Positions 97-12,395 of a stretch of DNA of 12,433 nt are shown in pieces. Within the stretch, counting starts at the first letter, position 1. Every line of letters starts with the position of its first letter. The translations under genes were made by a program, and so were the position numbers. This DNA comes from Candidatus Acidulodesulfobacterium acidiphilum (GTDB lineage: Bacteria; SZUA-79; Acidulodesulfobacterales; Acidulodesulfobacteraceae): NCBI GenBank assembly GCA_008534395.1, contig SHMQ01000047.1:1-12433 (forward strand). The letters run 5' to 3'. The notes below the pieces were generated by a model. That model was not told where the DNA came from. It did no database searches and worked only from the letters and a program-made list of their open reading frames with translations.

Positions 97-1548
97 TTAA
101 GCTTTATGCGTCGCCGCTGATGCCGCAACCGATATTTTGTCGTCTTCTATGTATTTGTCTTCTTGTCCGACTTCTCTTAAAGACATTTCTTTAGTCTCAG
201 GCAAAGCAAAGGTGGTAAGTATAGCGCCTAAAATCGCAATTACAGCAAGTATCAAGAATGTTCCTTTGACTTTAAAAGCGACCATTAAGAACGGAAACAA
301 GAGCGTACCAAGAAATGCGCCGAATTTTCCGCTTCCTGCCGAAATGCCGTCGCCTAACCCTCTTATGGGAGTCGGGAATACTTCCGACGGATAAACGAAG
401 GTCGTTACGTTTGGTCCAAATTCGGTAAATATGTAACTCATGCCGAATACCAGCATAAACATAGCGGGGATAAGTTCATATCCGCCGAAACTCGTAAAGG
501 AAATGATAAGATAGGCAACCGCCATACCGATAAATCCGACGGTCTGTATAAATTTCCTTCCTAATTTATCCATGCTGAATGCCGCTATCCAGTAAAACGG
601 CGCCGCAAAAACTACAAAAACTATCGTCGATAAAGCAAGGCCTTGGATAAAACTGCCGTGAGGCATAATAGATTTCATAACGAGCGGCAAACTTATAGAA
701 TTTCCGTAAAAAGCCCAGTCCAACAAAAACCAAGAACCCGCCGTTCCGAGAAGCCTTAAATTATTAGGATAGGTAAACATATCCGTCCATTTTGTCTTTA
801 ATTTGACGCCGTTTTCGTTTTCGGATTTTTTTGGTTCGGCGGCCACTATTTTAGAACCTGTTATGTCGTTAATAGCGGCAACCGTTCCCGAAACGTCTCC
901 TTTTGCGTCAAGACTGTAATACGGCGTCTCTTTAATCTTTCTTCTTAAGTATATTACGCTTGCGGCAGGTATAGCGCCTAAGCCGAGCAATATTCTCCAT
1001 GCCGTATCGTGCGGTACTCCGAGCATTATAATAAGAATAGCCACCATAGGACCGACTACCAATCCTATTCCTTGAAGAGAAAAAACCATGGAGACTAATT
1101 TTCCCCTGTCTTTCCTGTTTGAATATTCGCTCATTATTATCGCGCTTATCGGATAGTCGCCGCCGATTCCGATACCTAAAACTATCCTCCATATTATAAG
1201 CTGGGTAATATCCTGTGAAAAAGCGGAACCTATCGCGCCTATCGTTAAGATTAAAACTTCCAAGCCGTAAATAGCTTTTCTGCCGAAAATATCCGAAACC
1301 CTTCCAAAAATATATGCTCCAAGCGCCGCAGCAATTAAAGACGAACTTCCCAGCAGCGCAATTTCCGGCGTCGTTAAGTGCCATATCGGAGTAAGCAGAG
1401 CAATAACGACCCCGATTATGAAAAGGTCGTAAGCATCCGTAAAAAAACCCATTCCGGCCGTAAACATCGTCCTGAAATGATGCCTTACAAGGTCGATGTC
1501 GTCAACCTTATTAAGCAGGTTATTCCTTAAATCTTTAGCAGATTCCAT
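97..1548 (-). CDS. MFS transporter, phosphate:H+ symporter (PHS/Pho84-like) family
   Basis: The 483-residue protein is the usual length for a 12-helix major facilitator. Seen in the sequence: a first helix with GMGFFTDAYDLF (residues 32-43), the loop 2-3 MFS motif GRVSDIFGRK (82-91), GGDYPISA in helix 4 (129-136), TAWRILLGLGAIPA (182-195), a long central cytoplasmic loop (about 206-265) and GSWFLLDWAFYG in helix 7 (271-282). These match the Pho84/PiPT phosphate:proton symporters, in which acidic residues in helices 1, 4 and 7 serve phosphate and proton binding; the counterparts here are D38 or D41, D131 and D277. The expected role is inner-membrane uptake of inorganic phosphate driven by the proton gradient. 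The start is fixed by a strong AGGAGG ribosome site ending 8 bases before the ATG. A phased repeat array with a -10 box lies upstream. Another anion or organic acid as substrate is possible, as the wider family is varied. Confidence 0.85.
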   Translation of the reverse strand: MESAKDLRNNLLNKVDDIDLVRHHFRTMFTAGMGFFTDAYDLFIIGVVIALLTPIWHLTTPEIALLGSSSLIAAALGAYIFGRVSDIFGRKAIYGLEVLILTIGAIGSAFSQDITQLIIWRIVLGIGIGGDYPISAIIMSEYSNRKDRGKLVSMVFSLQGIGLVVGPMVAILIIMLGVPHDTAWRILLGLGAIPAASVIYLRRKIKETPYYSLDAKGDVSGTVAAINDITGSKIVAAEPKKSENENGVKLKTKWTDMFTYPNNLRLLGTAGSWFLLDWAFYGNSISLPLVMKSIMPHGSFIQGLALSTIVFVVFAAPFYWIAAFSMDKLGRKFIQTVGFIGMAVAYLIISFTSFGGYELIPAMFMLVFGMSYIFTEFGPNVTTFVYPSEVFPTPIRGLGDGISAGSGKFGAFLGTLLFPFLMVAFKVKGTFLILAVIAILGAILTTFALPETKEMSLREVGQEDKYIEDDKISVAASAATHKA

Positions 1549-1608: not shown

Positions 1609-1664
1609 ATTCTATCAAACTAATGTTACAATTTTGTGACGTTTATGTTAAATTTTTGTAACAT
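1609..1664 (-). promoter_or_regulatory. Pho-box-like promoter of the MFS transporter: four 11-bp-phased repeats plus -10
   Basis: Read on the plus strand, the 7-mers GTTACAA (1625), GTGACGT (1636), GTTAAAT (1647) and GTAACAT (1658) start exactly 11 bp apart. On the coding strand they read ATGTTAC, ATTTAAC, ACGTCAC and TTGTAAC. Exactly 10 bp beyond the proximal repeat lies TAGAAT (1614-1609), a 5/6 match to TATAAT, and there is no separate -35 box. Activator repeats replacing the -35 and ending about 10 bp before the -10 is the known layout of PhoB promoters. The expected start of transcription is near 1602. The identity of the regulator is inferred. Confidence 0.65.
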
Positions 1665-1665
1665 T

Positions 1666-2847
1666 TTAAATATTAAATGCATCATCGAAACCGTCAGCAT
1701 ATCTATCTCTGTCGGTTAAAGGGTCTATCCCCCACAGATTTTCGACGTATTTAAGAACGGAGGCGTGTTCGTGCCTTATATTTGAAACGTAACCTTTTTT
1801 GACGAACGGCGAAATAATTATACAGCCTACTCTCATTCCGAGACCGTAATAATCTACTATGGGCGGCACTACATGGTCGTAAAAGCCGCCGCATTCGTCC
1901 CAGTTTAAAAATATAGCCGATTTTGAAAATAAAGGGCTTTTTCTTAAAGCTTCAATTCTTTTTACCGTATATAACATTCCGGTTTTAACGTTTGCCGGCG
2001 GATGCTCGGAATGAGCAAAATCCGGTACGAGCCAGCTGAACTTAGGAAGCGTCCCTTTTTTTATATCCTCAAAATATTCTTCGGCGGGTCTTATTTTATT
2101 CCATAAGTTTTTATCTCTTTTGAAACTTTCAAACCATATCACCGGCACCCAGTGATGAACGTATTTATGTGGATTAGGCCAGCCCTGCACGTATATTTTC
2201 CAAGAAATCTTGGCTTTTTCGAGCCTGTTAAAAATCGTCGGAAACTCGTATGGTTTTCTCGGCGGAGCATCGGTTATGTGCCCGTTCGACTGTCCTGCTA
2301 TCTGATAAAGCCTGTTAGGCTGGGTAGGACCCATAATAGAATGAAAATAGTTCTGACATAGCGTATAATTCGTAGCATAGTAATAATAAGGCGAAAGGGC
2401 TTTTTTCGTATCGTAGTAACCCATAATAACCCTGTAGTCGTTGACGGGCTGATTAATTCCGTTTAAGAAATATCCGTCCATTTTACCGTTATTATATATA
2501 GTATGTAGAGCATCCCAAGTATGATTCGGGTCAACATGATCCGGCGTTACGTAACTAAAACCTAAATCGTAAGGTTTTACGCTTCCGCCCATTCCGTCGG
2601 TTATTCCAAGTTCCCTTACTCTTGCAGGCTGTCCGTTTACGGTGTCGTTCATCATTCCGAAATAGTGGTCGAAACTTCTGTTTTCCTGCATTATTAATAC
2701 TACGTGCTCCGGTTTTTTATATTTATTTAATGCGGCGTTTGAAGTATTATCTATGGCGGCATCCGCTTTTTTAAGATTAATGCCGTTCAAAAATAACCCC
2801 GATAAAAGACTTAATCCAGTCATTTTTACAAAATCTCTTCTGTTCAT
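1666..2847 (-). CDS. Tat-exported phosphoesterase (phospholipase C/acid phosphatase family, PF04185-like)
   Basis: This 393-residue enzyme begins with a twin-arginine signal: NRRDFVKMTG at residues 2-11, a hydrophobic stretch to about 22, and a likely cleavage after ADA (28-30). The mature part carries the family signatures in order: QENRSFDHYFG (54-64), HTWDALHTIYNNGKMDGY (109-126), GPTQPNRLY (183-191), PDFAHSEHPP (275-284), NWDECGGFYDHVVPP (315-329) and RHEHASVLKYVENLWGI (358-374). These Asn, Asp, Glu and His residues are the metal and phosphate ligands of the phosphoesterase superfamily that holds bacterial phospholipases C and the AcpA-type acid phosphatase. It should hydrolyse phosphodi- or monoesters in the periplasm or outside the cell; the substrate cannot be read from sequence. 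AAGGAGG lies 7 bases before the ATG. It starts 62 bp after the terminator that follows exbD, so it is either attenuated read-through or has its own promoter in that gap. Confidence 0.85.
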   Translation of the reverse strand: MNRRDFVKMTGLSLLSGLFLNGINLKKADAAIDNTSNAALNKYKKPEHVVLIMQENRSFDHYFGMMNDTVNGQPARVRELGITDGMGGSVKPYDLGFSYVTPDHVDPNHTWDALHTIYNNGKMDGYFLNGINQPVNDYRVIMGYYDTKKALSPYYYYATNYTLCQNYFHSIMGPTQPNRLYQIAGQSNGHITDAPPRKPYEFPTIFNRLEKAKISWKIYVQGWPNPHKYVHHWVPVIWFESFKRDKNLWNKIRPAEEYFEDIKKGTLPKFSWLVPDFAHSEHPPANVKTGMLYTVKRIEALRKSPLFSKSAIFLNWDECGGFYDHVVPPIVDYYGLGMRVGCIIISPFVKKGYVSNIRHEHASVLKYVENLWGIDPLTDRDRYADGFDDAFNI

Positions 2848-2909
2848 TAATTAGCCTCCTTAAAATCATTATTTTTACATTTATATATTTTACGGCATCT
2901 TCTCATTTC

Positions 2910-2951
2910 AAAAAAAGATTTGTGCGGAAAAGTTTCGCCTTTCCGCACAAA
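2910..2951 (-). terminator. Intrinsic terminator after exbD, ahead of the Tat phosphoesterase
   Basis: A perfect 12-bp stem (2919-2930 with 2940-2951, arm TTTGTGCGGAAA) encloses a 9-base loop. On the minus strand it is followed by TC and seven T (2916-2910). Its GTGCGGAAA core is also found in the two terminators at 8978-9017 and 9647-9686, although the flanking sequence differs. It ends the TPR-tonB-exbB-exbD unit but leaves only 62 bp before the next start codon, so it could also act as an attenuator. Confidence 0.85.
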
Positions 2952-2953
2952 CA

Positions 2954-2987
2954 TCCTTATTTCCGATAGGGGGACTGGAGATAAAGA
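2954..2987 (-). other. Stem with a C-rich loop directly before the terminator (RNA module, copy C)
   Basis: On the minus strand UCUUUAU (2987-2981) pairs with AUAAGGA (2960-2954), seven pairs with one G-U. The wobble pair works only in minus-strand RNA, which supports that strand. The 20-base loop starts CUCCAGUCCCCC. The same order, a stem with a pyrimidine-rich loop beginning CUCC and then a GTGCGGAAA terminator, occurs in the two 101-bp repeats near 9.0 and 9.7 kb, although the base sequence differs. It could be a 3' UTR element, an attenuator part or a small RNA; the function is unknown. Confidence 0.4.
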
Positions 2988-3030
2988 CAAAATTTTATAT
3001 AAATAACATTTTAAATTAAAATAACATTAA

Positions 3031-3435
3031 TTACTTCACGGGATTTACGGCTATAGAAACTCTTAAAAAACCATCTTTTTTTATAATATCGATTGTTTTC
3101 ACCACCCTTTTTAAATAAATTTTTTTATCGCCGTTTATAATAATTAAATCTTTTTTATTAGCGACTCTTTGCTTCAATAAAGCCGGTAGGCCTCCTAACG
3201 TCGTTCTTTCTTTGTTAAGGTAAACGCCGCCGTTTTTCTTTAAAGTAATAGTATAATTATGCAATTTAACCGTCGAACCCTGCGAAGACTTAGGAAGATT
3301 AACGTTTAATCCTTTCTGATGAACCATGGAAAGAGTCACGAATATAAAAAATATTAAAAGAAAAAACATAGTATCTATCATAGGTATCAACTCTATTCTG
3401 GCTTTTTTAGTTTCCTGTTCGTTTATTAGTTTCAT
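3031..3435 (-). CDS. exbD: ExbD-type biopolymer transport protein
   Basis: The 134-residue length is typical of ExbD. It has a short cytoplasmic N-terminus, one membrane helix (about 16-38) opening with ELIPMIDTMFFLLIFF, and a periplasmic domain of about 90 residues. D21 in PMID matches the single conserved membrane aspartate (Asp25 of E. coli ExbD) that carries protons through the motor. With ExbB and TonB it converts the proton gradient into force for outer-membrane receptors. It is the last gene of the operon and is followed by a strong terminator. The start is slightly uncertain: the only good ribosome site, GGGAGG, lies about 19 bases from this ATG, further than usual, and an in-frame stop three codons upstream rules out a longer N-terminus. 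TolR is the close alternative, but the tonB neighbour favours ExbD. Confidence 0.88.
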   Translation of the reverse strand: MKLINEQETKKARIELIPMIDTMFFLLIFFIFVTLSMVHQKGLNVNLPKSSQGSTVKLHNYTITLKKNGGVYLNKERTTLGGLPALLKQRVANKKDLIIINGDKKIYLKRVVKTIDIIKKDGFLRVSIAVNPVK

Positions 3436-3506
3436 ATTTTGTGCTTATCGCATTCCTCCCTAACGTTAATTATAATAAGCTATTAGGATTATAAATTTTT
3501 ATTTGC

Positions 3507-4223
3507 CTAACTTAATGCGGATTCATTAGCCGCTATTTTAACGTTTTTATTTTCAAACTGAATTCTTTTTTGATTAGAACCAAAACTGTTATTGTCCTTT
3601 AAGTCGTTTTTGCTTATAAAATTTTCGAATTGCAATACGACGTATTCCATCTGTTTTTTTATTGAAATAATTTTGCTCTGAAAATAATTAAAAAATCCTA
3701 AACAAAGTATTGCTATAACTAAACCTGCAGCCGTATTTAAAAGGGCTAATGCAACTCCTCCGGTAATTGCGGTAGGATGAGACACGCCTGTCTTGCTTAT
3801 CACGTTAAACGAAATCATAATCCCAATTATTGTTCCAAGAAGTCCTAAGAGTGGCGCCATAGTTATTAACGTGTCCAAAACCCACATATATCTTTCCATC
3901 TCTTTTGTATGCCTCATTGCTTCTTCAGTAAGGACTTCGTCCCTTTCGTCTTTTGAGAGGCACAGGTTATTTAAACCTACTGAAAGAAGGGAAGAATATA
4001 TTCCGGGATGTTCATCGCAGTATTCTTTTGCTTTTTTAAGTCCGTTATCCGTTTTTAAAATACTTTTGATTTCTTCGCTAAAAGACGAACCTGTTTTAAG
4101 TACGCTGTGCAAAAAATAAAATCTTTCTACAATTACCGTAATAGCGACTAAAAGCAAAACCAGCATAACATACATAAGCGGACCGCCGTCAAAAAGTATT
4201 CCGATGGTGTGAATTATGTTCAT
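3507..4223 (-). CDS. exbB: ExbB-type (MotA/TolQ/ExbB) proton channel protein
   Basis: The 238 residues show the three-helix pattern of the family: helix 1 at about 15-38 ending in VERFYFL, a large cytoplasmic loop, helix 2 at 116-140 with APLLGLLGTIIGIM, and helix 3 at 153-180 with ALLNTAAGLVIAI. T131 and T164 correspond to the two channel threonines of E. coli ExbB (Thr148 and Thr181), with the same spacing of 33 residues. The protein forms the pentameric stator around ExbD in the inner membrane. An AAAGGAGGG ribosome site precedes the ATG. It sits between tonB (92 bp upstream) and exbD (71 bp downstream) on the same strand, so it is very likely co-transcribed. The C-terminal 40 residues are polar and Asn/Lys-rich, and not conserved in the family. 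Confidence 0.9.
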   Translation of the reverse strand: MNIIHTIGILFDGGPLMYVMLVLLLVAITVIVERFYFLHSVLKTGSSFSEEIKSILKTDNGLKKAKEYCDEHPGIYSSLLSVGLNNLCLSKDERDEVLTEEAMRHTKEMERYMWVLDTLITMAPLLGLLGTIIGIMISFNVISKTGVSHPTAITGGVALALLNTAAGLVIAILCLGFFNYFQSKIISIKKQMEYVVLQFENFISKNDLKDNNSFGSNQKRIQFENKNVKIAANESALS

Positions 4224-4315
4224 TATTTAAACCCTCCTTTAATTTATAAGTTATTTGAAAATATTTAAAATTGTCGTTGTAAAAAAATCTTGCCTTGCTT
4301 TACGCCTGTTACCTG

Positions 4316-5017
4316 TTACCGCCGTTTTAATTTAAAATGTATTTTTATTAAAAAAGTCAGCGAATTTCTTTTTATGCCTTTTGGAAAAGAAGGAAACGGC
4401 GAGGATATTTTTATGGTTTTAACTGCCGAAGTATTTAAAGTACCGTATTGCGACCCTTTTTCGATCTTCTCAAAAACCAAGTTTCCGTTTTTTAAAATTT
4501 TGAACAATACATTTACGTATCCTTCCATACCTTCTTTTCTCGCATACGTGGGATAGATTAAATTATTTACTATTTTTGATTTTATTTCCGCAAAGTATTT
4601 ATCTAATATGCTTGCAGGTATTTTCGTTTGAACATGATAAACTGCCGGCTGTTGTATAACAGGATTAACCGCCGCCATAGGCGACGTTACCGGAATTTGA
4701 TTTACCTTTATCTGTTTTACCGCCCTTACTACTCTTTCAACTTTTTTAATTATCGGTTTTTTATATACGACTTTCTTTATCTTCTTGACAGGAACGACCT
4801 TTTTTTTGTGATGAACGACCGCTTTCTTTTTTTTCGGCACGCTGATTACGGAAATAAGCAGCGGCTTTACCCGCTTAACGGGTTTCATATAATTCTTAAT
4901 CATAATTGAAACTTCCGCTATTAACAGCAAAAAAATTACTTCAAGAATTATTGCTATAAAAAACGAATATTTTAATCTTGTATTTTTATCGGGAAATTCT
5001 TTAATTACGTTTTCCAT
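4316..5017 (-). CDS. tonB: TonB energy-transducing protein with a lysine-rich linker
   Basis: The 233-residue protein has the TonB layout: a cytoplasmic N-terminus, one membrane anchor (17-40), a long periplasmic linker (42-130) and a C-terminal receptor-binding domain (about 140-231) containing YPTYARKEGMEGYVNVLF (155-172) and the closing SSPFPSFP (205-212), which match the TonB C-terminal family. The linker is unusual: in place of mainly Pro-Glu/Pro-Lys repeats, residues 42-106 are dominated by Lys and Val (KKKKAVVHHKKKVVPVKK and similar). It transmits force from ExbB/ExbD to outer-membrane receptors such as the one at 9942-12395. I see no clear Shine-Dalgarno before the ATG; translation may rely on the preceding TPR gene, 33 bp upstream. 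Confidence in the family is high; which receptors it serves is inferred. Confidence 0.88.
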   Translation of the reverse strand: MENVIKEFPDKNTRLKYSFFIAIILEVIFLLLIAEVSIMIKNYMKPVKRVKPLLISVISVPKKKKAVVHHKKKVVPVKKIKKVVYKKPIIKKVERVVRAVKQIKVNQIPVTSPMAAVNPVIQQPAVYHVQTKIPASILDKYFAEIKSKIVNNLIYPTYARKEGMEGYVNVLFKILKNGNLVFEKIEKGSQYGTLNTSAVKTIKISSPFPSFPKGIKRNSLTFLIKIHFKLKRR

Positions 5018-5050
5018 AATTTTTATTTTTAAGATTATTTGTTTAGCGTA

Positions 5051-5833
5051 TTATTTAAAAAGATTTCCTGTACTTTTTTTAATATTTTTAATTTCTTCGT
5101 CCTTTTTATAAATAATTGCTTTTTTATCTACATTAATAGCTTCAATTATCATTTTATTTCCCGGATTTAATTTTTTCGCGTGCATAAGGTCTTTCAAAGA
5201 ACTGTTGAATTCTTTCAAACCGTATTCGGCTCTTCCTTTTAAAAAAAATGCATAATAATTTTTTGGATTCTTTTGTATTATTTTATTTGCATAATATATT
5301 GCTCTTTTTAAGTGCGCAGGGTTGCTGTTTTCGTAACTCATCGCAAGATTTAAAGTCAAAAAATCAACTAGTTTTTTGTCCGATGCATAACTTAATCCTT
5401 TTTTGTATTGATTTATTGAATAGTTAATTCTTTTTGTTTTTAAAGCTTTATTACCGCTTAATAAATAATTAAGGGCAATCCCGTTTTTTACGGACGATAA
5501 AAATTTATTCGGATTCTTAAAGTTTTTTGACTTTAATACGGAAATAATCGATTTTTTATAATAACCGGTGCTGGCTTCATATTGCTTTTTAAACTGAAGT
5601 ATATTAGCCGCAAGTTCGTAAGTATATGGATTTTTATTTTCTGTCAAAGCCTTTTTCGCGTATTCCAAAGCGGAATTATATTTTTTATTTTTTAAAAAAT
5701 TAACTGCTTTATTGTAATTTTTCTGCCATTTTACGCTCGATGCGGCATAAGCTCCGATTGCGGATGAAAAGATAATATACACAGATATTAAGCATAAAAA
5801 ACTATAAAAAAATAATCGAAAATTTTTATTCAT
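5051..5833 (-). CDS. Exported TPR-repeat protein, first gene of the tonB-exbB-exbD operon
   Basis: A 260-residue protein with a Sec signal peptide (hydrophobic 9-25, likely cleavage after AYA at 28-30). The mature part is alpha-helical with tetratricopeptide repeats, clearest at about 38-70 (NYNKAVNFLKNKKYNSALEYAKKAL) and 190-222 (NYYAFFLKGRAEYGLKEFNSSLKDL), with weaker units between. The last 35 residues are charged and look like coil. No enzyme motif is visible. Periplasmic TPR proteins encoded beside tonB/exbBD (for example TtpC-type accessories in Vibrio) assist receptor energisation or scaffold the complex; a similar role is inferred here from position. TGGAGAT lies 9 bases before the ATG. 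It is the promoter-proximal gene behind a Pho-box-like array and a structured leader. Confidence 0.75.
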   Translation of the reverse strand: MNKNFRLFFYSFLCLISVYIIFSSAIGAYAASSVKWQKNYNKAVNFLKNKKYNSALEYAKKALTENKNPYTYELAANILQFKKQYEASTGYYKKSIISVLKSKNFKNPNKFLSSVKNGIALNYLLSGNKALKTKRINYSINQYKKGLSYASDKKLVDFLTLNLAMSYENSNPAHLKRAIYYANKIIQKNPKNYYAFFLKGRAEYGLKEFNSSLKDLMHAKKLNPGNKMIIEAINVDKKAIIYKKDEEIKNIKKSTGNLFK

Positions 5834-5874
5834 AAAATTAAATCTCCATATTGTATTACTTTATTTATTAATAG

Positions 5875-5943
5875 ACTCCTCCTGAATAAACTCCTAATTT
5901 TCAGGAGGAGTAGTTTACCAACTTTTGTGAGGAGGAAGTAAAC
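5875..5943 (-). promoter_or_regulatory. Structured leader with two hairpins upstream of the TPR-tonB operon
   Basis: The predicted transcript from the upstream promoter would start within a few bases of hairpin 1: GUUUAC/GUAAAC (5943-5938 with 5918-5913), whose 19-base loop contains UUCCUCCUC. Hairpin 2 follows at once: a perfect 12-bp stem, ACUCCUCCUGAA with UUCAGGAGGAGU (5886-5875 side and 5911-5900 side), with a 13-base loop. No T-run follows hairpin 2, so it is not an ordinary terminator. The AGGAGGA in its 3' arm could pair with UCCUCCU in the loop of hairpin 1, giving two exclusive folds. Possible uses are mRNA stabilisation, a switch, or a binding site for a protein or small RNA. Confidence 0.45.
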
Positions 5944-5953
5944 TTATATTTAT

Positions 5954-6029
5954 ATTTTACTAAATGAATGTTACGGGATTATTACATTTGTATTAAATTA
6001 TGTTAAAATTTGTTACATAATCGTTACAT
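5954..6029 (-). promoter_or_regulatory. Pho-box-like promoter of the TPR-tonB-exbB-exbD operon: six phased repeats plus -10
   Basis: On the plus strand the 7-mers GTTACGG (5970), ATTACAT (5981), ATTAAAT (5992), GTTAAAA (6002), GTTACAT (6012) and GTTACAT (6023) are spaced 11, 11, 10, 10 and 11 bp. The two distal copies are identical. On the coding strand the unit is ATGTAAC followed by 4 bp, which compares with CTGTCAT plus 4 bp of the E. coli Pho box in the same orientation. TAAAAT (5959-5954), 5/6 to TATAAT, lies exactly 10 bp after the proximal repeat. No terminator is visible between the stop of the upstream phosphoesterase at 6046 and the array. Confidence 0.7.
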
Positions 6030-6045
6030 TATTGTTTTATTTATT

Positions 6046-8235
6046 TTATTTACCTAATCCGATAAAATGCGCTACCGGAGCTTTTTCTTTTTCTGCAAGC
6101 GTTTTTATATAGGCTACGACTTTATGAAACGATTTAACCCCTTTTACTCCGAGCCATTCCTGCTTAAACTGCTGATAACCGTCGACTTTTAAAAGAGTAG
6201 TCGGTGTATATAGGTTTTTGCGGCTTATTTTAACAACTGGATTATTTCCGCTAAAATTTACGGGAACATATTTTTTAGGAAGTTTTGCGCCTAATTTTAA
6301 CCTGAGTTTTTGCACCTGGGAACAAACGCCCGGGTTCAATCTCTTTTTTACCGTAATTTTTAAAAATTTATATGGCCTGCCGTTATCCTGTTTGCTAGTA
6401 AAACCGTTTATTATAACTTTGGCATTGGCGTCCCACTGGCTCATAGGCGGAAGATTAAATATCGCCTCTATAGTTTTTACTATCGAAACCTGCGAATATC
6501 TCTGCTTTATCAATGCGCCTTTTTTAACATACGGTCCCATCATGAGCGCAAAAGTTCTGTGCGCTGAAATATGGTCTGCTCCGGATTGCGCATCGTCTTC
6601 CGTTAAAAATACGAGAGTATTTTTCCATATTTTAGAGCGCGATAGAAAAGATATTATTTTACCTGTCGCTTCATCATTATTAGCCACATAATACTGAGGC
6701 GTATAATAGCAGGGGGCTAATCCTGCCGTATGATCGTCCGGCAGCCAGATATAAGTAAAATCGGGAAACTTATTTTCTTTTAGTCTTTTTTTAGCCCATT
6801 TTATAAAAATTTTAGCCCTCGTCGTGTCCAATATATCCCTGTTCCAACCCGGATATTCGGATACGACGTGAGCTTCCATCTGCCTGTTTACTCCATTAAT
6901 GCGGGTATGCGCTACAAATTCGCCAAAATCGGCAAAACTTATATGATGAGACAACATATCGTTGAACAGATACAATTTATACGGATATGAAATCCAGATA
7001 TTAGTCAAATGAACATGTAATTTTTTCATAAGCCTATTTCCTATATATGCCGGATTTAAAAAAGTATCGTCTTTGTCCGGTATCGCAGGCTTTAATAAAG
7101 TTCTGCTTTGAGGATATCTTAGTCCCCTGCCGGAATAATTTTCCGGCCATACCCTCTGAACGTAATCAGAATCGGATGCTCCAGTCGTCCATTCATGACC
7201 TTGAGCGGTTACCTCGCCGTCTGCGTAAAAATTTACGAACAGCGCATATTTATTAGCAAGTTTGTATAGATTGGGAAGCTCTTTTTTATTATACAAATCG
7301 AGATGCGGATCAGCCCATTTACCTGCTCTGGCGTAATCTCCCAAATCTTCGTCGAAGGTTTTGTTTTCGCGCAGAATAAATACTATATGTTTGATATGTT
7401 TTCTTAGGAATTTTATTTCCGCTTCTTCTTTTGCTTTTCTTGCCGCCCTTTGTTTAAGCGTAAATCCGTCGTCTTTTAACGCTAAATGCGTTAAATAGCT
7501 TTTATTTTTAAAAAAATACTTTATGCCCACTTTTTGAACGGCTCCGTGCATAAAACTGCATATCCATTGATATTCCAAGTTAGGTCCCGCGCTCAAACCT
7601 TTAGCGTCGGTAATATAAATTGATTTGCCGGAAGAAGTAAGCGACGTCGGATACCATGCTGTCTGAATTAGACCTATGGGTTTATAATCCGACAAATTAA
7701 ATGCTTCTACGTCGTTATTGCCTGCATTGGCTACAAAAAAATATTTGCCGCTTATGGTTATTCCGTCGGGGTAACTTCCGTATGGAGCATGTTTATAAGG
7801 GCTTATGTGAATAATTTTGACGACTTTAAGACTTTTGGTATCTACTACAAATATCCTGTCGTTGTTAGATGCGGCGATTAACGATATAGGAGTGCCTGAA
7901 ACCGAAGCTATAGCCGTCGGATGCATTCCCGATGACGGCATCGGATTATTATCGAAGGATATTTTCCCTAAATATTTAAGTGACGGGGTGAATAACCTTA
8001 CTTCGTCGCCGCCCCAGTCGCTTACGATTAACCTTTTTCCGTTATCAGCCTGACTTACGGCAAAAGGATACGGTCCCGCGTTTGCGTATTTTATGACGCC
8101 CGTTTTTAAGTTTATTTTTGCGATAGAGTTTGAAAGCAAACCCGTTGCATAAATATATTTTTGGTTATCAGATAAAATAACGTAATCCGGATAAAAAAAA
8201 ATAAGGTTTGATATTTTCGTGCCCCTGATACTCAT
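6046..8235 (-). CDS. C-terminal part of a frameshifted YncE-propeller/alkaline-phosphatase-family phosphoesterase
   Basis: This 729-codon frame holds most of a YVTN/YncE-like beta-propeller (residues about 15-215, with blades such as KYIYATGLLSNSIAKINLKTG and KYFFVANAGNNDVEAFNLSD) followed by a phosphoesterase domain. The catalytic region starts at HIVFILRENKTFDEDLGD (283-300) and continues with DGEVTAQGHEW, FTYIWLPDDHTAG and LTEDDAQSGADHISAHR (534-550), the metal-ligand segment of the family. NCBI describes the same fusion as a bifunctional YncE family/alkaline phosphatase family protein. It should act outside the cytoplasm on a phosphate ester; its substrate is unknown. The ATG at 8235 has no ribosome site and lies inside the upstream frame, so it is not a natural start. 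The true gene begins at 8938 and is interrupted by one extra base in a homopolymer at 8193-8201; restored, it would be 963 residues. Confidence 0.8.
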   Translation of the reverse strand: MSIRGTKISNLIFFYPDYVILSDNQKYIYATGLLSNSIAKINLKTGVIKYANAGPYPFAVSQADNGKRLIVSDWGGDEVRLFTPSLKYLGKISFDNNPMPSSGMHPTAIASVSGTPISLIAASNNDRIFVVDTKSLKVVKIIHISPYKHAPYGSYPDGITISGKYFFVANAGNNDVEAFNLSDYKPIGLIQTAWYPTSLTSSGKSIYITDAKGLSAGPNLEYQWICSFMHGAVQKVGIKYFFKNKSYLTHLALKDDGFTLKQRAARKAKEEAEIKFLRKHIKHIVFILRENKTFDEDLGDYARAGKWADPHLDLYNKKELPNLYKLANKYALFVNFYADGEVTAQGHEWTTGASDSDYVQRVWPENYSGRGLRYPQSRTLLKPAIPDKDDTFLNPAYIGNRLMKKLHVHLTNIWISYPYKLYLFNDMLSHHISFADFGEFVAHTRINGVNRQMEAHVVSEYPGWNRDILDTTRAKIFIKWAKKRLKENKFPDFTYIWLPDDHTAGLAPCYYTPQYYVANNDEATGKIISFLSRSKIWKNTLVFLTEDDAQSGADHISAHRTFALMMGPYVKKGALIKQRYSQVSIVKTIEAIFNLPPMSQWDANAKVIINGFTSKQDNGRPYKFLKITVKKRLNPGVCSQVQKLRLKLGAKLPKKYVPVNFSGNNPVVKISRKNLYTPTTLLKVDGYQQFKQEWLGVKGVKSFHKVVAYIKTLAEKEKAPVAHFIGLGK

Positions 8236-8938
8236 AGGGGTACTGGTTTTTTGGAAATTGCTGCCATTTAAGTCGGTAGCTTCTCACAGCTTTAAGCCTG
8301 CCGTTAATGTATTTAACCGCTAAAATATTTCCGGAAACGCCACCTGCCGCGTAAATAGTTCCGTTTTTGTTTACGACAAGACCTTGAAAAAAACTTTGAT
8401 TTCTAATAATTGTAGTAGGTATAGTAGAATTCGGAACGCGCGCAATACTGTCCGCATATATCAGCGACGTCGCATAACCTTTATTTTCTTTAATATTAGA
8501 TTTTTTGGCATACTGGACTATAGGACCCAAATACGGCAAATTAGACTCGCCTTCAAATGCTTCCAGTACCGCAAGCGGCTTTAAACTCTTTCTATTGTAT
8601 AGCTCAATTTTTTGAATCTTTTTTGAAGGGTTTGTAAGGACTACAACATAATTTTTATAAATTTTTACGTTAGTCGGAAAATTTTCCGTCGCGCTTAATA
8701 ATCCGACCGGACTTATTAAACGGCCAGTCGGAAGTTTATGTGTATATTCCTTAATATTTTCCTTTGTTATTTTAACCGGAATATGTTGAAGAAATACGCT
8801 CGGTATATTGTGATTCGGGATGAGGTTAGCCGCCGAAGAACTTTCCGCATGTCCAAACAAAAATATTATTAAAATACTTATAACAGGTATTATAATAAAA
8901 ATTTTAGATTTAATATTTCGCTTTGAAGTAAGTTTCAT
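8168..8938 (-). CDS. N-terminal part of the frameshifted YncE-propeller/phosphoesterase (signal peptide and first blades)
   Basis: I start it at the ATG at 8938 rather than 8953: GCGGAG sits 7-9 bases before the former, and the earlier ATG overlaps that ribosome site. The product opens with MKLTSKRNIKSK, a hydrophobic Sec segment (IFIIIPVISILIIFLF) and a likely cleavage after SSA. Beta-propeller strands follow, for example YKNYVVVLTNPSKKIQKIELYNRKSLKPLAVL and QGLVVNKNGTIYAAGGVSGNILAVKY. The frame ends soon after YPYEYQGHENIKPYFF, where removing one T would continue as YPDYVILSDNQKYIYATG in the next frame, exactly in register with the propeller. So this is not a separate gene. It lies 40 bp after the terminator of repeat copy A, and no Pho-like array is visible immediately upstream. 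Confidence 0.75.
   Translation of the reverse strand: MKLTSKRNIKSKIFIIIPVISILIIFLFGHAESSSAANLIPNHNIPSVFLQHIPVKITKENIKEYTHKLPTGRLISPVGLLSATENFPTNVKIYKNYVVVLTNPSKKIQKIELYNRKSLKPLAVLEAFEGESNLPYLGPIVQYAKKSNIKENKGYATSLIYADSIARVPNSTIPTTIIRNQSFFQGLVVNKNGTIYAAGGVSGNILAVKYINGRLKAVRSYRLKWQQFPKNQYPYEYQGHENIKPYFFLSGLRYFI
8193..8201 (-). other. Nine-base A/T homopolymer causing the frameshift in the propeller-phosphoesterase
   Basis: Nine A on the plus strand read as nine T in the gene: CCT TAT TTT TTT TTA. With eight T the reading becomes PYFFYPDYV and joins both frames without loss. The frames overlap from 8235 to 8168, both are otherwise clean and both keep family motifs. The shift may be an assembly error, a phase-variable or recent mutation, or a site where transcriptional slippage restores some full-length product. 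The sequence alone cannot separate these. Confidence 0.85.
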
Positions 8939-8962
8939 AAATATACTCCGCATCTTAATTTA

Positions 8963-9063
8963 TTAATTTACGTTTCTAAAAAAATACGTGCGGAAAATCT
9001 TTTAAAACTTTCCGCACATACTTGCTTTAACTTTGAGAAGAGAGGAGAAAGATAAAGCAAAAG
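8963..9063 (-). repeat. 101-bp perfect direct repeat, copy A (two-hairpin RNA module)
   Basis: Identical over 101 bases to 9632-9732, offset 669. On the minus strand it holds first a stem, 9060-9053 with 9029-9022 (UUGCUUUA/UAAAGCAA), extended past one mismatch by CUUU/AAAG and closed by the 13-base pure-pyrimidine loop CUCCUCUCUUCUC. The GTGCGGAAA terminator follows. It comes 40 bp after the stop of receptor remnant A and 24 bp before the start of the propeller-phosphoesterase. No transposase or terminal inverted repeats are present, so it is not an insertion sequence. Confidence 0.8.
8978..9017 (-). terminator. Intrinsic terminator ahead of the propeller-phosphoesterase (copy A)
   Basis: A 9-bp stem, GTGCGGAAA (9017-9009) with TTTCCGCAC (8996-8988), has a loop of about 12 bases and is followed on the minus strand by GTA and seven T (8984-8978). 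It closes the unit of receptor remnant A. The phosphoesterase start codon is only 39 bp downstream of the T-run, so an attenuator role is possible. Confidence 0.8.
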
Positions 9064-9103
9064 TTTATAATTGTTATCAATTAAAAATTTATATAATCAA
9101 AAT

Positions 9104-9355
9104 TTAAAACTTCACTGATGCGTTAAGCATAAAGAACCTTGGGAGACCGGGCATAACGGTTTCATAGGTATAATTAGAATTGCCTGGTATAGAATTATAT
9201 CCTATATAACCCCATGCGTTATAATTTCTGTTAAGGATGTTATCAACGCTTAACTAAACTTTTACGCCTTTAAATTGGGCGTTTTTTAAAATTCCGATAT
9301 TTTTAAAATTAAAGTAATGGCTTAAATTCAAATGCGCTTTATAATCTATAAAAAT
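9104..9355 (-). pseudogene. Remnant A: C-terminal end of a TonB-dependent receptor with an internal stop
   Basis: Minus-strand translation gives about 83 codons that align end to end with the last strands of the intact receptor: LNLSHYFNFKNIGILK here against LNLSRYFNFKKMGILK there, then the VDNILNR turn, then MPGLPRFFMLNASVKF against MPRFYYVTTSFKF. A TAG at 9256-9254 replaces a serine codon just before LSVDNILN. Upstream of about 9355 the frame hits a stop and the similarity ends, so plug, N-terminus and most of the barrel are missing. Only the last C-terminal beta-strands remain, ending in the terminal Phe needed for outer-membrane insertion in intact receptors. It is a relic of a neighbouring paralogue, not a functional gene. 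An orphan Pho-like promoter lies 75-150 bp upstream and probably belonged to it. Confidence 0.85.
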
Positions 9356-9420
9356 AAAAACATTAAATTATTTTAATTACTTTAATTCGTTCAGTTGAAC
9401 CTGATTTAAAAAAAACTAGA

Positions 9421-9440
9421 TTTGATAATATCTTATCAAA
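9421..9440. repeat. Inverted repeat overlapping the -10 of the orphan promoter
   Basis: TTTGATAA (9421-9428) and TTATCAAA (9433-9440) are separated by 4 bp. On the minus strand eight T follow after 5 bases (9415-9408), so it could be a weak AT-only terminator or an operator. It covers the predicted -10 hexamer of the phased array, and neither of the other two arrays has it. Confidence 0.3.
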
Positions 9441-9505
9441 TAAATGTTACACCTTTATGAAATTTTCGTTAAATAATGTTAAATTTTGTTACAAAATTAT
9501 TACAT
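9430..9505 (-). promoter_or_regulatory. Orphan Pho-box-like promoter: six phased repeats left between receptor remnants
   Basis: Plus-strand 7-mers GTTACAC (9446), ATGAAAT (9457), GTTAAAT (9468), GTTAAAT (9478), GTTACAA (9488) and ATTACAT (9499) are spaced 11, 11, 10, 10 and 11 bp, the same series of spacings as at the TPR-tonB promoter. Ten bp past the proximal copy is TAAGAT (9435-9430), a 4/6 match to the -10; TATTAT (9430-9425) is a better hexamer slightly further on. The first thing downstream is receptor remnant A, so the promoter probably drove the receptor gene that has since been mostly deleted. The stretch 9506-9631 holds nothing else I can support. Confidence 0.6.
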
Positions 9506-9631
9506 TTTTTGAATTTTATATATTATTTCTAAAATGATTTGAAAAACGGATGAAGGAAAGAAAATATCAACTTATTTATTTATTTTTAAAGTTTAAACAC
9601 CAAATTTAAATAAATCTGACAGCAAGACTTT

Positions 9632-9732
9632 TTAATTTACGTTTCTAAAAAAATACGTGCGGAAAATCTTTTAAAACTTTCCGCACATACTTGCTTTAAC
9701 TTTGAGAAGAGAGGAGAAAGATAAAGCAAAAG
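9632..9732 (-). repeat. 101-bp perfect direct repeat, copy B (two-hairpin RNA module)
   Basis: Same sequence as 8963-9063 without a mismatch. The pyrimidine-loop stem lies at 9729-9691 and the terminator at 9686-9647 on the minus strand. It follows the stop of receptor remnant B by 26 bp. Unlike copy A and the related copy C, no phosphoesterase follows; the next element is the orphan promoter 127 bp downstream. Confidence 0.8.
9647..9686 (-). terminator. Intrinsic terminator after receptor remnant B (copy B)
   Basis: The same 9-bp GTGCGGAAA/TTTCCGCAC stem with GTA and seven T on the minus strand as copy A. It would stop transcripts from the receptor gene at 12395-9942 and remnant B before the orphan promoter. 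Confidence 0.8.
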
Positions 9733-9758
9733 ACTTAATTATTTATTATTTATTAAAG

Positions 9759-9906
9759 TTAAAACTTTACCGATGCGTTAAGCATAAAGAACCTCGGAAT
9801 GCCCGGTAAACCTTGGAAATAGTTATATGCTGGTCCATTGTTTAACATTATAATATTAATATACATATCAGCAACGTAATATTGTTTATTTATTTAAAAT
9901 ATTATC
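9759..9906 (-). pseudogene. Remnant B: C-terminal end of a second TonB-dependent receptor, frameshifted
   Basis: The minus strand encodes DNILNK, then after a shift QYYVAD and a run ending FQGLPGIPRFFMLNASVKF with a TAA at 9761-9759. DNILNKQYY matches the DNILNRQYL turn of the intact receptor, and RFFMLNASVKF is identical to the end of remnant A. The two parts are split by a tandem (TTTA)3 tract at 9885-9896; with two units in place of three the frame is continuous, so one 4-base slip explains the break. Only about 48 codons are recognisable. It begins just 36 bp after the stop of the intact receptor, as if the body of a tandem paralogue had been deleted. Confidence 0.75.
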
Positions 9907-9941: not shown

Positions 9942-12395
9942 TTAAAATTTAAATGATGTCGTCACATAGTAAAATCTTGGCATTCCGGGCAAATATTCAG
10001 CATAAATGGCGTTTGAATTTGGGTATGTGCTGACAAATCCCGGGATTGCGCCGGTAAGATACTGTCTGTTTAAAATATTGTCAATGGATAAGCTGAGTTT
10101 CATACCTTTAAGGCCGGCTTCTTTTAATATGCCCATTTTTTTAAAGTTGAAATAACGGCTAAGATTTAAATTAAACAGCCAGTAACCGCCAAGGTGGAAC
10201 GCGCTTGTAGGATTTCCGTTTATGTCTTCTACGAACTGCTCGCCCGTGTATGTCCCCCACAACCTTGCGTCTATATTATAATAGTTTTCGTCAACGCCGA
10301 TATTTGCAAGATGCCTCGGTATAAACGGAACATTTTCACCCGGTAAAACATTTCCTGCCGGACCTGAATAGGTAGAAGTAAACTTTCCGGTATTTAACGA
10401 ATAGTTTGCAAAAACATTCAGATGGCGGTTAAAATCATATTGTCCCTCAAGCTGTAAACCCTCATACCGCGACCTGCCGCCGTTTGTCTCATAGGTAACT
10501 TCCGTTGCGGTATTTAAATATGTACCGAATGTATTGGAAAAGTCTTCTTTATACACATTTGCCGAAAGTTCGAGATTATCTAATCTGTACCTCGTTCCAA
10601 GTTCGTAATCGGTAACATATTCGGGCTTTATTCCGCTTAAAGATGTGGTAAAGTTAGTTCCGTTATAAGAAGTCAGCACGGATTCGTAAGCGGTATAATT
10701 TGGAGCTTTCATCGTCCTTCCGTAAGTTGCGTAAAAATTCCAGTTTGGAAGTAGATTATAGCTTAAACCAATCGTGGGTTCTATTTCGGTAAATGTATCC
10801 GATACCGTCCCGCCGTACGGATAAAGGGACGGCCATGTTTCGTTTGTTGCAACGCTCATATCCACTATTTGATATTTAACGCCAGGCTCGATAAATAACT
10901 TATCGGGAATAATGTCCACCCTGTCTTGCGCATAGACCGCATCCATATTCTCCGTACCGTGTTCATTATCGGCAATATTGTAAAAAGGCGCGACAGGCCC
11001 GTAACTTTCTCCGTAAAACGACTCTATTTTGTGATATCTTCCGAAAAGGAATTGTCCGCCGAGCGTAAGCACATTTCTCGGAAATCTAACGGTAACCGAG
11101 GGAATATCGCCGAACTGGCTTACATTCACGGCTTTATAATGGTTATCTGTTCCGTAAGCAAATCCGGGAGTAAAGCCGTTTGCAATTGCCGTAGCGCTAT
11201 TTTGACCGTCAAGAAACTGCGGGTCTGGATTATAAGTAGCGGTGGGAACAGGCGTTAACGACCAGTTTCCACTTCCGAAACTTAAAGAATAAGGCTGCAC
11301 GCCGTTAATATAAATGCTCGAAGGTATATCGCATGACGCCGTGCTGATTCCAGCGCTGGCGGCACTTGTATGGCATGCCGGGTTTACATAAAGATTTTTT
11401 GCCATATTTTCATTAAAGTAAAAACTCTTATTGTCAAAGGTAAGATCTCTGTTTATATAAGCCTTCCAACCAAGTATGGCGTAATACTCCTGATTGTAAG
11501 CCTGCGCATTTTCGACGGAAGTCGGCCATCCCCAGCTATAGCCGAACTGATCAAGCAGCGGTACGGGAACGAGGTGCGGGTCGTTTGCGTAATCGTCATT
11601 TCTCATAAATATGAACGAAATATGCGATCTGTTGTTATTATACGGCTTAATAAGGGACATATAATATGAATGGAGCCTGTTGGGGTAAGCTGAACCGTCA
11701 TACCAGTTGTTCGCGTCGTCTCTTGATACCTTCAAATACATTCTGATTCCTTCCCAGAGCTTGCCTGTATTCAAAGCAAAACCGTAAGTCCTTGTGGCAA
11801 AAGAACCGTAGCCTCCGAATATCTTGGCGTAAAATTTGCTGGTCGGCATCAATGGTTCATAGTTTATCGTGCCGCCAAGGGAGTCAAAGGAATCAATACT
11901 TGGATTATTCACGCCGTAATAAATCCCGACCCCGGAAATATCGCCGAGCGTAAACGGAACGTTGTTCCTAACATCCATATAATTGGAAGAATCGCCGTCA
12001 AACATGTTGTTAATCGGCACGCCGTCAAAGGTCTGTGCAACCTCGCCTGTGCCAAAGCCCCTTAATTCGACGCGCGAACGGATATTATTAGGACCGCTGG
12101 TACTTGCGTGTATGGAAGGCGCTTGATTTAATATCGTCTCGAAGGAGTTCATAGGCGATTTTGTTGCCTCGATAGCCCTCTTTTTAATCTTCGATACTGT
12201 AAAAGGCGTCCTTTTCACTTTCTTAGCTTTTTTCTCGGCTTTTAAAACGATTACTTTGGCATTTGCCTTAGACGGGGCATAAAATGCAGCAAATACCGAC
12301 AGGGCAATAAACAGGATTAGTTTAAATTCAGTCCTGTTTAACCCTATCCCCAAACCAATCTTTCTTAACTTACCATCAGGAACTTTCAATTTCAT
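9942..12395 (-). CDS. TonB-dependent outer-membrane receptor
   Basis: The 817-residue protein has a long basic N-terminus, a signal segment (24-40) with likely cleavage after ANA (44-46), and a TonB-box-like KVIVLKAEK at 47-55. The plug domain follows (about 60-178: TPFTVSKIKKRAIEA, ILNQAPSIHAS, RSRVELRGFG, FDGVPINN, SLGGTINYEPL), then a 22-strand-type barrel ending in SFKF with the terminal Phe recognised by the BAM machinery. Signature segments near the end are PEYVTDYELGTRYRLDNLELSANVY and SIDNILNRQY. Two cysteines (C341, C355) lie in a predicted external loop and could form a disulphide. The ribosome site AAGGAGA precedes the ATG. The ligand cannot be read from the sequence; the neighbouring phosphoesterases and Pho-like promoters suggest a phosphorus compound, but a siderophore or other ligand is possible. 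Only 38 bp of upstream DNA is in the window, so its own promoter is not visible. Confidence 0.92.
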   Translation of the reverse strand: MKLKVPDGKLRKIGLGIGLNRTEFKLILFIALSVFAAFYAPSKANAKVIVLKAEKKAKKVKRTPFTVSKIKKRAIEATKSPMNSFETILNQAPSIHASTSGPNNIRSRVELRGFGTGEVAQTFDGVPINNMFDGDSSNYMDVRNNVPFTLGDISGVGIYYGVNNPSIDSFDSLGGTINYEPLMPTSKFYAKIFGGYGSFATRTYGFALNTGKLWEGIRMYLKVSRDDANNWYDGSAYPNRLHSYYMSLIKPYNNNRSHISFIFMRNDDYANDPHLVPVPLLDQFGYSWGWPTSVENAQAYNQEYYAILGWKAYINRDLTFDNKSFYFNENMAKNLYVNPACHTSAASAGISTASCDIPSSIYINGVQPYSLSFGSGNWSLTPVPTATYNPDPQFLDGQNSATAIANGFTPGFAYGTDNHYKAVNVSQFGDIPSVTVRFPRNVLTLGGQFLFGRYHKIESFYGESYGPVAPFYNIADNEHGTENMDAVYAQDRVDIIPDKLFIEPGVKYQIVDMSVATNETWPSLYPYGGTVSDTFTEIEPTIGLSYNLLPNWNFYATYGRTMKAPNYTAYESVLTSYNGTNFTTSLSGIKPEYVTDYELGTRYRLDNLELSANVYKEDFSNTFGTYLNTATEVTYETNGGRSRYEGLQLEGQYDFNRHLNVFANYSLNTGKFTSTYSGPAGNVLPGENVPFIPRHLANIGVDENYYNIDARLWGTYTGEQFVEDINGNPTSAFHLGGYWLFNLNLSRYFNFKKMGILKEAGLKGMKLSLSIDNILNRQYLTGAIPGFVSTYPNSNAIYAEYLPGMPRFYYVTTSFKF

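Follow-up and report, generated by a model that had tools for sequence, protein, structure and literature searches.

Phased repeat arrays in the window

Contig SHMQ01000047.1 of Candidatus Acidulodesulfobacterium acidiphilum, whose 12,433 nucleotides are referred to here as the window, carries three arrays of phased 7-bp direct repeats, each placed ahead of a -10 hexamer, among genes for a symporter-like transporter, phosphoesterases, and a TonB system (Table 1). All three lie on the minus strand, on which every flanking gene is encoded as well. When scored with a position weight matrix (PWM) built only from arrays on other contigs, they reached 51.2, 48.9, and 36.6; the next-best site in the window reached 16.4, and 200 dinucleotide-preserving shuffles gave a maximum of 20.3 (mean, 13.0; standard deviation, 2.0). 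Because scores from this window-independent matrix lie far above the shuffle maximum, the arrays are not a product of chance, which confirms the three promoters described in an initial annotation of this DNA. Array 1 was also recovered, at an E value of 1.5e-5, by R1, a sequence-only model built from nine six-unit arrays that did not include it, and a counterpart of array 2 precedes the orthologous gene in G002 and G012 (L222, L239, and L280; G denotes a genome of the family).

The initial annotation had placed every proximal unit 10 bp before the -10 hexamer. The spacing is indeed constant, but with the units as set here its value is 9 bp, because the earlier unit register (ATGTAAC) was shifted by one base. 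In one detail the unit consensus proposed at that time is too narrow, the second unit being systematically different. The observation that both six-unit arrays have two 10-bp steps, at matching places, held: from distal to proximal, the steps of arrays 2 and 3 are 11-10-10-11-11, with 3-bp spacers at u5-u4 and u4-u3, and this pattern is preserved in the orthologous promoters of relatives. An inverted repeat (TTTGATAAGATATTATCAAA) surrounds the -10 hexamer of array 3 at about positions 9421-9440 and may be a second operator.

Table 1. Arrays and genes of the window
Feature	Position	Strand	Description
MFS transporter	97-1548	-	Best NCBIfam model phosphate:H+ symporter TIGR00887, 321 bits, below cut-off of 610
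Array 1	1609-1663	-	Promoter of the MFS symporter gene; four 7-bp units in 11-bp steps: TGTTACA 1657-1663, TTTAACA 1646-1652, CGTCACA 1635-1641, TGTAACA 1624-1630; then 9 bp to -10 TAGAAT 1609-1614
Phosphoesterase/phospholipase C-type enzyme	1666-2847	-	PF04185, TIGR03396-like
ExbD	3031-3435	-	
ExbB	3507-4223	-	
TonB	4316-5017	-	
TPR-like protein	5051-5833	-	First gene behind array 2
Array 2	5954-6028	-	Promoter of TPR-TonB-ExbB-ExbD; six units: TGTAACG 6022-6028, TGTAACA 6011-6017, TTTAACA 6001-6007, TTTAATA 5991-5997, TGTAATA 5980-5986, CGTAACA 5969-5975; then 9 bp to -10 TAAAAT 5954-5959
Large phosphoesterase, C-terminal part	6046-8235	-	Frame broken relative to 8168-8953
Large phosphoesterase, N-terminal part	8168-8953	-	
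TonB-dependent receptor, C-terminal remnant	9107-9334	-	One internal stop; 53% identity to residues 742-817 of the intact receptor
Array 3	9430-9504	-	No intact gene directly behind; six units: TGTAATA 9498-9504, TGTAACA 9487-9493, TTTAACA 9477-9483, TTTAACG 9467-9473, TTTCATA 9456-9462, TGTAACA 9445-9451; then 9 bp to -10 TAAGAT 9430-9435
Intact TonB-dependent receptor	9942-12395	-	Own array outside the window, on contig C52 (C52:249-305)

Arrays across the genome and the family

Scanning of the 2.09-Mb genome (70 contigs) with patterns, a unit scan, and R1 yielded about 19 arrays in total, about 18 of which R1 recovers alone. Six R1 matches at E values of ≤2.9e-5 are independent of the training set (C7:62856, C12:49044, C52:249, C1:226090, C47:1609, which is array 1, and C52:1799). 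The match at C14:2850 nearly duplicates the C19 training array, the array of the phosphate-binding gene pstS (C39:2480) was matched at 1.9e-4, and that of a CHAD gene (C52:7930-7985) escaped R1 but was recovered by the pattern and unit scans. A weak match before ssb (C1:70945; E value, 0.026) had no good -10 hexamer and was not counted as firm. The near-identical pairs of array and coiled-coil gene at C14:2850 and C19:19199 could reflect a recent duplication or a mobile unit, and C67 and C12 hold paralogous copies of a small-membrane-protein gene, one with an early stop.

R1 detected at least four arrays in each of 18 family relatives and none in 12 outgroup genomes, with arrays at orthologous positions in four genera. 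First-gene clustering and spacing analysis covered 140 arrays from 19 genomes; of the 133 with a downstream open reading frame (ORF), 114 lie within 150 bp of its start. Array unit columns were 0.82-0.89 identical, compared with 0.38-0.53 in the 60 bp upstream. The genome is AT rich, and a two-unit pattern allowing two mismatches, too noisy for use alone, still gave 23 matches in the reversed control against 52 in the forward search, as might be expected if the arrays were chance or low-complexity AT-rich repeats; given the shuffle maximum, the conservation of units over flanks, and the orthologous positions in four genera, the probability of that explanation is negligible. The regulon is well supported.

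Two classes of arrays with a common design

The class to which the window arrays belong, referred to here as the phosphate class, comprises arrays of four units, or of about six with 10-bp steps, and half of its arrays conserve 3-bp spacers. In this genome, it precedes pstS, a CHAD-ppx-ppx-ppk operon, and genes for an outer-membrane protein, a major facilitator superfamily (MFS) protein resembling inorganic phosphate (Pi):H+ symporters, the TonB motor, and TonB receptors. The pstS array reads TGTTACA-aaaa-TTTAACA-taaa-TGTAATA-aaat-TGTAATA, and PstS itself was identified by TIGR00975 (269 bits, above the cut-off). Four-unit arrays precede pstS in three genera (here, G016, and G018), and that of G018 (L371) heads an intact pstS-pstC-pstA-pstB-phoU cluster. 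The initial annotation had proposed a genome scan for arrays at phosphate genes, and these pstS genes and the CHAD-ppx-ppx-ppk operon are what such a scan returns. The content of the genes behind arrays of this class, as annotated, supports the phosphate reading.

Arrays of the second class have six units, all 446 of their 446 steps are 11 bp, and the class is conserved across the family. Its targets include a YifB/ComM ATPase, an MshL-type secretin with a pilus operon, an F-like type IV secretion system (T4SS) operon, a protein with a weak HNH motif, a RAYT-like transposase, a coiled-coil protein, a small membrane protein, and a small basic protein. Grouped by the first downstream gene, the 140 arrays included ComM (16), HNH-motif (14), T4SS (13), MshL (13), coiled-coil (10), basic (10), TonB receptor (9), outer-membrane protein (8), and small membrane protein (7) groups, the counts being of arrays and in a few cases including more than one per genome. 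The T4SS operon on C11 matched TraC/VirB4-like (211 bits), TrbI (54 bits), and VirD4-like (62 bits) models. Immediately behind the T4SS operon are genes for a TdeIII-type restriction enzyme and a DNA methylase (L363:6994-9582). Classical natural competence was rejected as the role of this class because ComEC (PF03772) had no match in this genome; dprA is present but carries no array.

Both classes consist of 7-bp head-to-tail units with 4-bp spacers throughout, the exceptions being the 3-bp spacers at fixed steps of the phosphate class. The gap from the proximal unit to the -10 hexamer is 9 bp in 118/140 arrays and 10 bp in 21/140; split by class, the 9-bp gap occurs in 78/91 and 27/30 arrays. 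The second unit from the -10 hexamer is distinct (xxTCATA, xxTAATA, or xxTCACA) and closer to TGTCATA of Escherichia coli, with T at position 6 in 71-76% of cases in both classes and mostly C in other units, percentages that are approximate because the automatic unit assignment is off by at least one unit in a minority of arrays. The common 9-bp spacing and the distinct second unit suggest, therefore, that one kind of OmpR/PhoB-family regulator probably reads both classes.

From this design and the gene content, it appears likely that the arrays are promoters read by the OmpR/PhoB family, with the class found in the window forming a phosphate-scavenging regulon and the strict six-unit class forming a second, DNA-transfer and pilus set. 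A division of labor between two regulators with near-identical half-sites, one (PhoB or RstA/ArsR-like) for the phosphate class and the other for the strict 11-bp six-unit class, is possible but rather doubtful. Such a division would fit the difference in step length (10-bp steps in 0/446 and 25/129 cases for the second and phosphate classes, respectively) and the presence of two OmpR-family regulators, the second being RstA-like, with the half-sites of the published RstA box (TACATNTNGTTACA) 10 bp apart as read from its sequence. It fits less well with the spacing and second unit common to both classes, and with the retention of both classes in genomes in which PhoB (G002, G008, G009, and G015) or the RstA-like regulator (G011 and G017) was not detected, incomplete as these genomes are.

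Candidate regulators

Exactly two Trans_reg_C proteins are encoded in the genome, PhoB on C15 and an RstA-like regulator on C1. PhoB (C15:6613-7335) fell short of the TIGR02154 cut-off (248 against 296 bits). Among solved structures, its DNA-binding domain is closest to E. coli PhoB (3t72, 1qqi, and 1gxp), with an identical RTVDVHIRRLR helix and a VWG loop, and this helix is invariant in the 17 PhoB orthologs read. Orthologs are present in Ca. Acididesulfobacter and SZUA-79 metagenome assemblies; the phoB gene is located before tamB and bamA. The C1 regulator has a DNA-binding domain nearest RstA and is accompanied by an ArsS-family kinase (312 bits against a cut-off of 250), the only kinase examined. 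PhoB is the most likely reader of the phosphate class.

Several observations weigh against the interpretation of the arrays as PhoB-read phosphate promoters. The second class accounts for 10-11 of the about 19 arrays in the genome, and because over half of the arrays thus precede non-phosphate genes, with strict 11-bp steps, an array alone is not proof of a phosphate function. The Pho-type assignment of the initial annotation accordingly stands in its 7+4 geometry at the -35 position, its genome-wide regulon, and its phosphate link, but does not extend to this larger part of the set. No dedicated PhoR was recognized, in that no kinase gene lies beside phoB and no genome-wide PhoR search was made. 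Among the 19 family genomes, PhoB was not found in seven (G001, G002, G008, G009, G010, G015, and G018) and the RstA-like regulator was not found in five (G010, G011, G013, G017, and G018), all of which carry arrays. In G018, which is 99% complete by markers, no Trans_reg_C domain was detected, yet arrays precede pstS, an outer-membrane protein gene, and an HNH gene. A rough post hoc estimate from the completeness values predicts about two absences per regulator gene, and because the absences exceed this number, part of the regulator loss may be real. An attempt to map classes to regulators by presence and absence failed, each regulator being missing from some array-bearing genomes.

The RstA/ArsR-like regulator was detected in 14/19 genomes, compared with 12/19 for PhoB, its kinase scores above the ArsS-family cut-off, and its gene adjoins phosphate-island genes in G003 and G015. 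These features would suit a role as the main reader of all arrays in response to acid or envelope stress. We regard this role as unlikely, given that the regulator was not found in array-bearing G011, G013, G017, and G018, that pst and polyphosphate genes are among the array targets, and that the E. coli-type recognition helix is invariant in PhoB orthologs. Its candidacy as the island's own regulator was rejected on the grounds that it adjoins phosphate genes in only those two genomes. The arrays of G018 could also point to a DNA-binding protein outside the OmpR family, an explanation that appears highly improbable: a single missing gene is not rare in an 80-contig metagenome assembly, the OmpR/PhoB family is documented to bind such 7+4 head-to-tail units at the -35 position, and the persistence of Pho boxes without a regulator gene has been documented in a cyanobacterium (PMC1906773).

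Comparison with known systems

In itself, a shift in consensus is nothing unusual for a Pho regulon. The PhoP box of Bacillus subtilis, TT(A/T)ACA, is similar to the present units in its core hexamer and its phasing of about 11 bp, whereas organism, unit number, and targets differ. The E. coli Pho box (CTGTCAT, 7+4 bp) resembles the arrays in its direct repeats with an 11-bp period, its similar distance to the -10 hexamer (9-10 bp, depending on register), the TGTCATA second unit, and the identical PhoB helix. However, the units here are mostly TGTAACA or TTTAACA, with only the second approaching CTGTCAT; they number four to seven rather than at least two, and they also stand before DNA-transfer and pilus genes. 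In published E. coli promoters, 10 bp separate the Pho boxes from the -10 hexamer, and cyanobacterial SphR uses at least three repeats (PMC1906773). The SphR boxes (CTTAACCT, at least three in tandem) share the TTAAC core, three or more units, and pst targets with our arrays, although the predicted sites there have two or three units and include no six-unit DNA-exchange class (PMC1906773).

Members of the OmpR/PhoB family bind direct repeats head to tail, with a strict 4-bp spacer for cooperative dimers (PMC4832192, PMC4415409, PMC1906773). For PhoP of Mycobacterium tuberculosis, which likewise recognizes a 7-bp motif with a 4-bp spacer and binds cooperatively to two, three, or four tandem units, the spacer is needed, a 3-bp spacer costs about 20-fold in binding, and three or four tandem units are bound more tightly (PMC4832192); its consensus differs, and the 3-bp spacers that are costly there are those conserved here in the phosphate class. 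The RstA box shares TTACA half-sites with our arrays, and the DNA-binding domain of the C1 regulator is nearest that of RstA, but the box consists of two half-sites rather than a long 11-bp array.

We found no open-access report in which PhoB controls competence, DNA uptake, or conjugation in this way, nor any precedent in that literature for six-unit arrays of such length and strictness that are linked, across a candidate order (here Ca. Acidulodesulfobacterales), to genes for DNA transfer and pili. PhoB is not mentioned in the paper that founded the order. The Ca. Acididesulfobacter/SZUA-79 group was described from acid mine drainage.

Phosphate island around the window

Genes were named by Pfam and NCBIfam. 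Contig C52 overlaps the window end by 127 bp; the two therefore join into one ~22-kb stretch whose six arrays share a strand. These precede CHAD-ppx-ppx-ppk (C52:7930), an antitoxin-PIN pair (C52:1799), the intact TonB receptor (C52:249), a receptor remnant (array 3), TPR-TonB-ExbB-ExbD (array 2), and the Pi symporter-like MFS gene (array 1). The pair, a Phd/YefM-like antitoxin and a PIN-domain toxin (L068:1033-1729), thus has its own array inside the island, and the same pair with an array occurs in G015.

The lost receptor that had been suspected behind array 3 was verified, as only C-terminal pieces of TonB receptors flank this array (9107-9334 and 9762-9821). A 124-bp direct repeat, 92% identical, occurs at 8960-9083 and 9629-9752, with similar receptor C-terminal ends after each copy (9100-9172 and 9755-9827), an arrangement that suggests that TonB-receptor genes next to the intact copy have repeatedly been duplicated and decayed. 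The large phosphoesterase consists of two overlapping frames here (6046-8953) and of a single 1012-amino-acid ORF in G016 (L294:10389-13427), the split being due to a frameshift or an assembly error. Hairpins of the form GTGCGGAAA...TTTCCGCAC lie between island genes at 2905-2945, 8982-9023, and 9651-9692 and are possibly terminators.

Proposed mechanism and implications

In the mechanism that we propose, regulator monomers would bind head to tail on the 7-bp units, 11 bp apart, and the proximal units, placed over the -35 position at 9 bp from the -10 hexamer, would recruit RNA polymerase. The binder would be an OmpR/PhoB-family protein, in this genome mainly the C15 PhoB ortholog, and the signal would be low phosphate. 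The phosphate-scavenging regulon would then comprise pst, the polyphosphate operon, the Pi symporter, outer-membrane receptors, the TonB motor, and phosphoesterases, and the strict six-unit arrays would drive the DNA-transfer and pilus gene set. Longer arrays may raise cooperativity and sharpen the response, and in arrays 2 and 3 a proximal three-unit block is probably set apart from distal accessory sites by the 3-bp spacers. We tentatively propose, as a step that may or may not hold, that one phosphate-type response regulator, bound to unusually long arrays with strict 11-bp steps, directly controls a conserved DNA-exchange program (F-like T4SS, MshL-type pilus, ComM helicase, and HNH-motif protein) together with the phosphate-starvation regulon across this candidate order of acidophiles; a shortage of phosphorus would then turn on either the transfer of DNA or its scavenging.

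The arrays define from sequence a regulon of about 19 promoters, each readable from its array, in a candidate order for which we found no report on gene regulation. The 3-bp spacers, conserved in one class only, provide a natural test of whether spacing sorts promoters among regulators that bind in tandem. If both classes are read by one regulator, phosphorus status would be coupled to horizontal gene transfer in acid mine drainage, a setting in which dissolved phosphate is probably scarce.

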